A stretch of 64,000 nucleotides of DNA, taken from Empedobacter falsenii (GTDB lineage Bacteria > Bacteroidota > Bacteroidia > Flavobacteriales > Weeksellaceae). Below, in pieces: positions 685 through 3,770 of the stretch. Both the position numbers and the translations under genes were made by a program. The stretch is from the NCBI RefSeq assembly GCF_019308355.1, contig NZ_JAAGKM010000006.1, forward strand, positions 1 to 64,000, in the 5' to 3' direction. The first letter of the stretch is position 1; every line of letters begins with the position of its first letter. Below the pieces are notes generated by a model. It did no database searches. It had not been told where the DNA came from and saw only the letters and a program-made list of their open reading frames with translations.

Positions 685-1692
685 TTATACGAGATGTTCC
701 AAAATTGTATTTAATTCTTGTAATTCTACCAAGAAACCATCGTGTCCAAAAATAGAATCTATTTCGATGAATTTTGCATTTGGAATATGATTCGCTATAA
801 ATTTTTGCTCACTTGGCGGAAATAATATATCCGAAGAAATTCCAATCACTAAAGTGTTCGAAGAAATCTGAGACAAAGATTTCTCTAAAGATTTTCTATT
901 TCGAGCCAGATTTTGTGAATCCATGGCTTTCGAAAGTGTCCAATAAGAATGAGCATTGAATCTGTTTGCTAATTTTTCACCTTGATATTTTTGATAAGAA
1001 GACGCTTTGAAATCATTGTAAACAGAATCCTCGTCTTTTTGCTTCTGTTCATATATAATATAGGTACGATAAGACAACATCGCAATTGTACGAGCTGCAA
1101 TCAATCCATTTCTTCCTCCAATCTCAGTTTTATCGTTAAAAGTTGCATCTGCCTCGATAGCTAAACGCTGCGATTCGTTGAACGCAATTCCCCATGGAGA
1201 ATGTACCGCATTTGTCGCCAACAAAACCAAATTATCCACTTTAACTTGATCAAGTAACGTAAATTCTAACGCTTGTTGACCACCGAGTGAACCACCTATT
1301 AATAAATGAATAGTTGAAATTCCTAAATGATCTGCCAACAATTGGTGCGCATTTGCCATATCTTTTATCGTAATTGTAGGAAAATCTCGATAATAAGGCG
1401 AATTTGTTTCAGGATTTGTAGACAACGGATTTGTCGTTCCATAATTAGAACCAATCACATTGGCGCAAATAATAAAATGATCTTTTGGATTGAATAATTC
1501 ATTTTCTCCAAAAAGACCAGCCCACCAATCAAAAACATCCGAGTTTGCCGTTAAAGCATGACAAACCCAGATGATATTATTTTTTTCGGGATTCAACGTT
1601 CCCGCTGTATGATAAGCAATGGTTAAATTTTCGAGAATTTGACCATTTTCTAATTGAAATGGCTTTGTATAATTATATTGATAAAAATTCAC
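685..1692 (-). CDS. metX: Homoserine O-acetyltransferase
   Basis: Transfers an acetyl (or succinyl) group from the CoA thioester to homoserine, activating it for sulfhydrylation in methionine synthesis; cytoplasmic. The 335-residue protein is an alpha/beta hydrolase: nucleophile elbow GGSLGG at 133-138 with Ser135, a late Asp288 in SSDILFPP and His317 in FGHDG complete the triad. Length is normal for the shorter flavobacterial form. The gene lies 30 bp after metY on the same strand, so the two are an operon making and using acetylhomoserine. The donor (acetyl versus succinyl) cannot be settled by eye. Related serine O-acetyltransferase-type enzymes share this fold, but the metY neighbour favours MetX. 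Confidence 0.92.
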   Translation of the reverse strand: MNFYQYNYTKPFQLENGQILENLTIAYHTAGTLNPEKNNIIWVCHALTANSDVFDWWAGLFGENELFNPKDHFIICANVIGSNYGTTNPLSTNPETNSPYYRDFPTITIKDMANAHQLLADHLGISTIHLLIGGSLGGQQALEFTLLDQVKVDNLVLLATNAVHSPWGIAFNESQRLAIEADATFNDKTEIGGRNGLIAARTIAMLSYRTYIIYEQKQKDEDSVYNDFKASSYQKYQGEKLANRFNAHSYWTLSKAMDSQNLARNRKSLEKSLSQISSNTLVIGISSDILFPPSEQKFIANHIPNAKFIEIDSIFGHDGFLVELQELNTILEHLV

Positions 1693-1722: not shown

Positions 1723-3081
<1,359 letters not shown>

Positions 3082-3091
3082 TTAGCTAAAA

Positions 3092-3190
3092 TTAGCAGCT
3101 GCACATTCGAATTTTACTATTGATACAATTATAGATGCTGTGAAGCAGGACGCCGTGTCCAAAAGAATGTTTTTTAGAATTGTACTTCAT
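3092..3190 (-). CDS. Putative 32-aa leader peptide ending in Met-Cys-Ser-Cys
   Basis: A complete ATG-to-TAA ORF too short for routine gene callers. The peptide starts MKYNSKKHSF, has one Cys at residue 22 and ends RMCSC, so two of the last three sense codons before the stop are TGC. It lies 61 bp in front of metY on the same strand, where no other gene exists. The stop codon sits inside a small inverted repeat (GCTAA/TTAGC, roughly 3086-3097), so a ribosome waiting on the cysteine codons would cover it. This arrangement resembles a cysteine-sensing attenuation leader. The ORF is seen; the regulatory role is inference, and no canonical SAM riboswitch was recognised in this gap. Confidence 0.55.
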   Translation of the reverse strand: MKYNSKKHSFGHGVLLHSIYNCINSKIRMCSC

Positions 3191-3211
3191 CTTTAAAAAT
3201 TATTCATTTCT

Positions 3212-3228
3212 AACTACACTTTGTAGTT
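3212..3228. promoter_or_regulatory. Perfect 7-bp inverted repeat upstream of the leader ORF
   Basis: AACTACA (3212-3218) and TGTAGTT (3222-3228) flank a 3-base spacer, 22 bp before the leader ATG. It could be an operator or a hairpin in the transcript. The rest of 3229-3420 is AT-rich with no gene and only a weak -7 match (TAACTTTTTG near 3340-3331, minus strand). Confidence 0.4.
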
Positions 3229-3423
3229 TTATATTTTATGTGAAATTAGAATAATTTTCTAAATAATAAAATTTATAATTAGTTTTTAGAAAATAAATCT
3301 ATAAAATTGATTTAAAAAGAATATTCATGCCAAAAAGTTAAAAATATTTCTTTCGAAATCTATAAAAAGGATTTAAACAGAATAAAATTTGAAGTAAAAA
3401 AGAGAATATTAAGTAGAAAACAT

Positions 3424-3454
3424 AAAAAAAGGAGATCAAAATTGATCTCCTTTT
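3424..3454 (-). terminator. Strong terminator of atpDC
   Basis: AAAAGGAGATCAA (3427-3439) and TTGATCTCCTTTT (3442-3454) form a perfect 13-bp stem with a 2-base loop, followed on the minus strand by seven T. It lies 22 bp after the atpC stop. Confidence 0.9.
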
Positions 3455-3476
3455 AAGTTTTATGATAAAAAAGTAA

Positions 3477-3770
3477 TTAGTTTGCTAAAACGATTACTTT
3501 ATTATTGTTCATTTCTATTGTTCCTCCTTTGATATCTAACAATAATGTAGATTCATTAGATGGAGAACTATAAACTTTTCCAGATTGATTATCGAAATCT
3601 TCGAAAGTTTTTGTGTGAACTTTAATTTTGATTGTTCCTTCACCTAAAGTTGCAACGATAGGAGCGTGGTTATTTAATAACTGAAATTCACCATCTTTAC
3701 CTGGTAAAGTAACAGCATCTACTTCTGCATCGAAAACTACGAATTCTGGCGTAATAATTTGTAAGTGCAT
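3477..3770 (-). CDS. atpC: ATP synthase F1 epsilon subunit, short form
   Basis: Part of the central stalk that couples the c-ring to the catalytic F1 head. The 97-residue protein is only the N-terminal beta-sandwich (MHLQIITPE, FDAEVDAVTLPGKDGEFQLL, NHAPIVATL); the two C-terminal inhibitory helices of longer epsilon subunits are absent, as is usual in this phylum. An upstream in-frame TTG would add twelve residues, but the family begins at MHLQII, so the ATG at 3770 is chosen. The gene follows atpD by 85 bp and is followed by a strong terminator. The other ATP synthase genes are not in the window. Confidence 0.93.
   Translation of the reverse strand: MHLQIITPEFVVFDAEVDAVTLPGKDGEFQLLNNHAPIVATLGEGTIKIKVHTKTFEDFDNQSGKVYSSPSNESTLLLDIKGGTIEMNNNKVIVLAN

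Follow-up and report, generated by a model that had tools for sequence, protein, structure and literature searches.

The metYX operon of Empedobacter falsenii is preceded by a short open reading frame that ends in cysteine codons, and sequence comparison suggests that this leader descends from a family of Cys/Met-rich leaders lying before metY across Bacteroidota. It was found in a 64,000-nt stretch of DNA (contig NZ_JAAGKM010000006.1, positions 1 to 64,000), which we call the window. The leader ORF is almost certainly real, and it likely senses cysteine. The best explanation, which we consider fairly probable, is that the translated leader would stall ribosomes at its Cys codons and unmask the metY start, with metYX made mainly under sulfur starvation. 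The finding is larger than the first-pass annotation of this DNA supposed, as the window leader stands at the edge of a phylum-wide family.

The leader lies on the minus strand between metY, whose ATG is at 3030, and atpC. The following features of the region are used below.

685-1692, minus strand: metX-like homoserine O-acetyltransferase (best match TIGR01392, 336.1 bits, below the cut-off of 500)
1723-3030, minus strand: metY, O-acetylhomoserine/O-acetylserine sulfhydrylase (TIGR01326, 673.6 bits, cut-off 495.1)
3031-3091, minus strand: leader-metY spacer, 61 nt, G-poor (12 C, 3 G), without a terminator-like hairpin
3092-3190, minus strand: leader ORF of 32 codons with ATG start and TAA stop, encoding MKYNSKKHSFGHGVLLHSIYNCINSKIRMCSC and ending ...KIRMCSC-stop
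3092-3109, minus strand: sensor end, Arg(CGA)-Met-Cys-Ser-Cys-stop, with the genus variants RMCSC, RMCYC, RMRCCF and RMCNR
3148-3160, minus strand: small hairpin within the leader ORF (GGAC..GTCC), 87.5% of cells paired
3427-3454, no strand assigned: terminator-like hairpin behind the neighboring atp genes, the upstream border of the region

The first-pass annotation had described a 32-codon ATG ORF ending in Arg-Met-Cys-Ser-Cys, 61 nt before metY in an otherwise empty 446-nt gap, and we confirmed both the ORF (minus strand, 3190-3092) and the gap (3031-3476). Cys makes up 3 of the 32 leader residues, two of them within the last three codons, compared with 0.43% in 35 long window ORFs. The sensor pattern ATGTGYWSNTGYTAA has a single match in its own genome, which is this leader, and the peptide has no matching family in NCBIfam. 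An inverted repeat around the stop, GCTAATTTTAGC, had also been pointed out; it is present, but its stem is no better than those of shuffled sequences (rank 0.27), and it is not kept in two genus relatives, L006 and L009. Elsewhere, hairpins straddling the leader stop (L064, L092, L098, L100, L111 and others) rank below 0.1 against shuffles in 13 of 51 leaders (binomial p 0.0012, KS p 0.039). As a universal part such a hairpin was rejected, being missing in many leaders and unremarkable in the window.

Conservation within the genus was assessed in 14 genomes, nine of which carry a close metY and make up the leader count, the other five lying outside it. The leader ORF is present in eight of the nine, with its stop 56–64 nt before metY. 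Its ends read RMCSC (four genomes), RMCYC (two), RMRCCF (one) and RMCNR (one), and IYNC.NSK.RM is kept in all eight. The variation includes an Arg instead of the Cys after Met in L008 and the loss of the second Cys in L009 (the RMCNR end). Between clusters of the seven equal-length leaders, pN is 0.04–0.08 and pS 0.29–0.65, which indicates purifying selection. Amino-acid conservation in relatives had been set beforehand as the test on which the ORF could fail; the leader passes it, being conserved within the genus with a pN/pS far under 1. Two marks of a Cys-codon leader peptide of the actinobacterial kind are found at the window's metY, namely Cys codons at the 3' end of a short ORF upstream of a sulfur gene and coding selection. 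The ninth metY-bearing genome, L010, has a different leader, MNTFNCFKQIRKETLLTQTIRLCSCGKRMR, which lies at -207 to -114 and follows a SAM-I riboswitch. The small hairpin at 3148-3160 is kept across the genus, and L008 has a G-C to A-U change in it although the peptide differs there.

Beyond the genus, a MetY alignment scan confirmed at least 591 loci, and the 400 nt upstream of metY were examined in the best 80 of these, a count that includes five cyanobacterial loci (L113, L118, L125, L130 and L132). Of these best 80 of at least 591 loci, 29 have an upstream ATG ORF whose last 12 residues include four or more Cys, a feature seen in none of 80 reverse strands and none of 800 dinucleotide shuffles. 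Lowering the threshold to three Cys gives 36 of 80 loci, 2 of 80 reverse strands and 16 of 800 shuffles; at two Cys, the counts are 45 of 80, 12 of 80 and 110 of 800. The ends of these leaders can be illustrated as follows.

Mucilaginibacter: ...CICMCCCCC
Bernardetia: ...MCCCCCC
Lewinella: ...RLMCCCCC
Hymenobacter: ...RMRMCC..CCCCC
Pedobacter: ...CMCCCIQ
Sphingobacterium: ...LAMRMC and ...RMRMHMHLPTC

Cys accounts for 30.7% and Met for 10.9% of the last 12 residues across 44 leaders (40 that follow a riboswitch, described below, and four from the genus), compared with 0.43% and 1.99% in the 35 long window ORFs. MetY composition was discarded as a baseline because MetY is nearly free of both residues, which makes the comparison unfair. 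A search of 296 phylum genomes with the pattern TGYTGYTGYTGYTRR was also set aside as too lax, since TRR also admits TGG and the opposite strand is hit by CAG-type repeats. The Cys end that the first-pass annotation had read as a sensor feature belongs to a phylum-wide pattern of Cys-rich leader ORFs before metY, and this pattern, together with the conservation in the genus, supports its proposal of translation-based cysteine sensing.

Many of these leaders sit behind a riboswitch. An Rfam scan of 60 loci (L010, L032, L053–L056 and L058–L111, with L057, L112–L132 and the family loci L033–L051, whose leaders look SAM-I-like by eye, outside the scan) placed RF00162 upstream of metY in 47, including L102, whose aptamer is 1503 nt from metY. 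In 40 of the 47, a leader ATG begins 5–15 nt behind the SAM-I aptamer and opens an ORF of 9–64 codons. Thirty-one of these 40 ORFs have at least two Cys in the last 12 residues and four more end in RMR or RMC, so that 35 have one feature or the other and five have neither. These 40 tandems, L010 and L032 among them, have the SAM-I (S-box) riboswitch immediately in front of the leader, and their aptamer ends just before the leader ORF, not before a terminator or gene. Among the seven loci without a leader at 5–15 nt, L066 has a poly-Cys leader with its ATG at +62, and no leader was seen behind the aptamer in L073, L102 and L108. In L095, L096 and L109, a riboswitch with the usual GATAAG-type P1 lies far upstream, and a separate poly-Cys leader lies close to metY.

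A second sample covered 118 phylum genomes, 102 of them with RF00162. About 150 aptamers were among the matches listed, and 128 were analyzed (100 fetched and 28 with loci), leaving out 14 rows of the heavily sampled family f17 without a locus, three from the window's own genome, the last four outside f17 and L231, which is at a contig end. Of the 14 aptamers whose P1 is TATAA-type, 7 are followed by a Cys-rich leader, whereas none of the 109 GATAA-type aptamers is; the remaining five belong to neither type. The Fisher p-value for this contrast, 4.8e-8, is optimistic because the P1 typing rule, like the rule for Cys-rich ends, was written after the second sample had been viewed. The other seven TATAA-type aptamers comprise three followed by ATG ORFs without Cys-rich ends and four with no ATG ORF behind them, although L331, among the latter, does have a poly-Cys leader that escaped the ATG rule by starting with GTG. 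Running counter to the P1 rule are two aptamers from outside this sample, namely L032, which has an RMRC leader and is classed as GATAA-type, and, from the 12 named genomes described next, the GATAA-type L222, which has an 18-codon ORF at +2 with two Cys in its last 12 residues.

We also read 30 of the 43 aptamers listed for 12 named genomes, namely those with loci; the genomes were picked for their metY aptamers or leaders, and their metY rows repeat loci of the first set. In these genomes, Cys-rich leaders accompany metY and, in one case, a cysH-like gene. In L219 (Pontibacter oryzae), a TATAA-type SAM-I aptamer is followed at +9 by a leader ending QKQNCCCCCCMC (...QNCCCCCCMC), before a cysH-like gene, which shows that the tandem is not confined to metY. 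The Hymenobacter aptamers L200, L203 and L210 have GTG-start leaders with Cys-rich ends, those of L203 and L210 lying before a permease-like gene. The names cysH-like and permease-like come from reading the translations, without a family search.

Translation in Bacteroidota starts in A/T-rich regions poor in Shine-Dalgarno sequences. In many relatives, the 3' strand of the aptamer's P1 would lie in the leader's ribosome-binding region, and SAM should for this reason gate leader translation. We envision a two-input RNA device before metY (and before at least a cysH-like gene and an amino-acid permease) in Bacteroidota, a proposal to which we give an even chance. The P1 3' strand of SAM-I would itself be the ribosome-binding region of the leader, SAM would shut off leader translation and only a ribosome stalled at Cys codons by cysteine shortage would activate the operon, which would make the device an AND gate for low SAM and low cysteine. 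The window clade would then have lost its response to SAM while retaining that to cysteine, with the leader codons connected directly to the metY start.

At the window's own metYX, only the leader half of the tandem is found. The SAM-I riboswitch that L010 and L032 carry at metY is absent there; known RNA families give no Rfam match at the gathering score anywhere in the window, and none of the ten weak matches in the gap (3000-3480) is to SAM, so a decayed SAM-I or other known family was rejected for this gap. The genus genomes hold two to three SAM-I riboswitches each, none at metYX except in L010, and no Cys-rich leader ORF follows the aptamer in the 14 informative of 16 genus SAM-I loci (L179 and L191 are at contig ends).

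In a tree of 40 MetY proteins, in which the bootstrap had not settled, the proteins of the window genus cluster with those of Sphingobacterium (support 100/99). Four other MetY proteins from the family to which the genus belongs (L033, L037, L045 and L052) fall elsewhere, and their upstream regions look SAM-I-like by eye and have no Cys leader. This placement and these upstream regions suggest that metY was acquired together with its leader by horizontal transfer, which we regard as probable. L010 and L032, both with SAM-I and leader, fall at the base of the window's MetY group with weak support (91/57 and 86/23); given this position, the simplest order would be that the aptamer was lost in the window clade after metY had arrived. 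The window clade suggests that one half of a two-sensor device can be lost and the other kept.

How the sensor would act on metY in this clade is indicated by predicted folds, in which the following segments take part.

3110-3120, minus strand: leader arm ATAGTAAAATT (codons N-S-K-I), predicted to pair with the metY start region, 96.6% of cells paired
3029-3039, minus strand: AATTTTATTAT, metY start region including the AU of AUG, 3' partner of the above arm in the predicted fold
3102-3108, minus strand: leader arm GAATGTG (codons R-M-C), second part of the long-range helix, 89.3% of cells paired
3045-3051, minus strand: CACATTC, 3' partner of GAATGTG upstream of metY in the predicted fold

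The helix that hides the start is predicted in seven of eight genus loci. The metY start region has a predicted unpaired fraction of 0.35 in the free RNA, 0.67 with a ribosome masked at the first Cys codon and 0.62 with one at the stop. Over the eight sequences, the main helix and the small hairpin have 92.4% of cells paired, versus 34–49% when slid. Nine of the 11 pairs of the main helix are invariant and one shows a two-sided change. The GAATGTG arm is re-registered in L008 and absent from the predicted fold of L009; L008 keeps the metY-start helix through the re-registered pairing and one two-sided change. Shuffled leaders leave as few start bases unpaired in 2 of 200 cases for L002, 1 of 200 for L006, 0 of 200 for L008 and 12 of 200 for L009, and synonymous recodings hide the start as well in 13, 11, 0 and 63 of 300, respectively (9 of 300 for L004, which is close to L002). 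Combined by Fisher's method, the recoding values of the four lineages give p = 0.0007, a generous figure because the lineages are related. For L009, concealment of the start is at chance level. As many two-sided changes in pairs as observed occur in 37 of 500 shuffles, and the 211-nt region as a whole folds no better than shuffles (z -0.36). Of the possible outputs, unmasking of the metY start has the best support in the window clade, although we put it forward tentatively, at somewhat less than even probability.

The same output was rejected as a general one. When the test was applied to the 40 riboswitch-leader loci, with recodings drawn from the codon frequencies of metY alone, the mean rank for start masking was 0.60, and 2 of 40 loci ranked below 0.1. 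Because no such masking is predicted in these relatives, the start-unmasking output would be specific to the window clade; the sensor is shared, and the output may differ by lineage.

In the explanation that we favor, the leader would be translated, and the ribosome would stall at its Cys codons when cysteine is short and run off the leader when cysteine is plentiful. A stalled ribosome would prevent the NSKIRMC codons from pairing with the metY start, a form of translational attenuation by which metYX would be made mainly under sulfur starvation. The window MetY (435 residues) has no Cys and no Met beyond the start Met, which fits a protein made under sulfur shortage; 28 of the 40 MetY proteins of riboswitch-leader loci are Cys-free too, but so are 9 of 34 long window ORFs. 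Several observations weigh against the explanation: the peptide body is conserved in the genus beyond the need of codon counting, L009 has no second Cys and a start hidden only at chance level, L008 has Arg rather than Cys after Met, and five of the 40 relative leaders are neither Cys-rich nor end in RMR or RMC. To these can be added the little covariation in the helix, with its invariant pairs and its two-sided changes matched by shuffles, and the unremarkable fold of the whole region.

The rival that survives best, which we still judge unlikely, is Rho-dependent attenuation. Here a stalled ribosome would shield a C-rich, G-poor Rho-loading stretch, and Rho would end transcription upon run-off or when no ribosome loads. 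Such a mechanism would suit the lack of an intrinsic terminator in the window and of a general one in the relatives, and the available text of Seliverstov et al. 2005 (PMC1262725) proposes it for the same layout in Mycobacterium. The composition of the spacers also favors it: C exceeds G in 39 of 40 riboswitch-leader loci (mean skew 0.30), above two controls, the upstream regions of other ORFs (39 of 74, 0.02) and leaderless aptamer-gene spacers (69 of 102, 0.09), and the spacers of the window genus have skews of 0.33–1.00. However, most of this skew lies within 50 nt of metY (0.75 and 0.41 in the two 25-nt bins), and further upstream it does not exceed the aptamer control. This position weakens the skew as proof of Rho, since it may only mark the initiation region. 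Moreover, a ribosome at the leader end would cover too little to hide so distant a site in most relatives.

Less probable again is nascent-chain arrest, in which the peptide body and the IYNC-NSK-RM core would stop the ribosome in response to cysteine, methionine, SAM or a different small molecule, and not to a shortage of Cys-tRNA alone. Purifying selection on the whole peptide, the presence of IYNC.NSK.RM in eight of eight leaders and the recurrence of Met and Arg beside Cys in relatives would agree with it. Yet the body is not conserved beyond the genus (L010, L032, Sphingobacterium), whereas the Cys-rich ends are, which points to codon sensing.

We give very little weight to classical transcription attenuation, in which stalling at Cys codons would choose between an anti-terminator and an intrinsic terminator before metY. 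The first-pass annotation had taken the leaders of His, Trp and Leu operons as its precedent, and the terminator of those systems did not bear out: none lies between the window leader and metY, and 32 of 40 relatives have none at -8 kcal/mol. A few relatives do carry terminator-like hairpins behind the leader (for example, L032 and L111), and the 8 of 40 riboswitch-leader loci with one at that threshold are a mild excess over 17 of 200 shuffles (Fisher two-sided p 0.044). An intrinsic terminator as a general part behind the leader was accordingly rejected. Least probable of all is a small functional protein or simple translational coupling without cysteine sensing, which purifying selection alone would fit but which leaves unexplained the Cys-rich ends of unrelated peptides before metY, cysH-like and permease-like genes, and for coupling the gap of 56–64 nt is long.

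The proposed mechanism shares its principle with known systems. With E. coli tnaC and erm-type leaders, expression of the next gene changes when a ribosome is held close to the leader end, and the signal is tryptophan or a drug. The held ribosome is what we propose here, but with cysteine shortage as the signal, and we know of no homology between those leaders and the window leader. The Rho-dependent rival would resemble tnaC and the proposal made for actinobacterial poly-Cys leaders.

Those leaders are the closest precedent. Poly-Cys leaders without terminators lie before actinobacterial cys operons, where Rho has been suggested (PMC1262725), and the mycobacterial ones are reported to be cysteine-responsive (Canestrari et al. 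2020, as cited in PMC9094748; also cited in PMC13236596). As far as the accessible parts of these papers describe them, they match the leaders reported here in having Cys codons by the stop, a place before sulfur genes and no obvious terminator. They differ in that ours occur in Bacteroidota, before metY, cysH-like and permease-like genes instead of cys operons, are often behind a SAM-I riboswitch and are probably not leaderless; the window leader has only Cys-Ser-Cys where actinobacteria have a run of Cys. In Rhodobacterales, the uORFC-8-2 leader before cysS has been proposed to combine Cys codons with a terminator (PMC8632094). Judged from the accessible text, its conserved Cys codons are proposed to stall the ribosome, as in the window leader, but it goes with an intrinsic terminator and a cysteinyl-tRNA synthetase, neither of which the window leader has. 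Leader-peptide attenuation before amino-acid biosynthesis operons has been described in Flavobacterium psychrophilum, a flavobacterium like the host of the window, with no cysteine or methionine operon named in the portion available (PMC9723704). Short ORFs in long 5' UTRs are described in the available text for Bacteroides thetaiotaomicron (PMC7366714).

Among the papers listed in searches of the open-licence PMC literature, we recognized no description of Cys leaders in Bacteroidota or of tandems of SAM-I and leader; the accessible parts of PMC2965389, PMC4833913, PMC7366714 and PMC13236596 show neither. Whereas poly-Cys leaders are known in actinobacteria, the Bacteroidota family and its coupling to a riboswitch appear to be new, and the tandem with the riboswitch is the novel part. 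If our reading is true, the known range of Cys-codon leaders would grow to include Bacteroidota, and there would be an account of how a sulfhydrylase operon able to feed both the methionine and the cysteine pools senses both. The tandem would also be an example of a riboswitch that controls a regulatory leader peptide rather than a gene. The aptamer, the Cys codons and the metY-start helix are each testable parts.

Two further observations concern the leader and its surroundings. The Arg that precedes Met near the leader end (15 loci and window positions 3104-3109) is encoded by CGA in 18 of 20 cases, and CGA makes up 46 of 515 Arg codons in the metY genes of the riboswitch-leader loci. This preference is unexplained and could reflect a slow codon or an RNA motif. 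Further upstream lies a possible operator or promoter part.

3246-3263, minus strand: palindrome TTTAGAAAATTATTCTAA, upstream of the leader, with arms kept in eight of eight genus loci

As the operator of a regulon it was rejected, with five forward and two reverse matches versus two and two for the reversed control and neighbors that are not recognizably sulfur genes. One further exact copy of the palindrome in the genome stands before a receptor-like gene.
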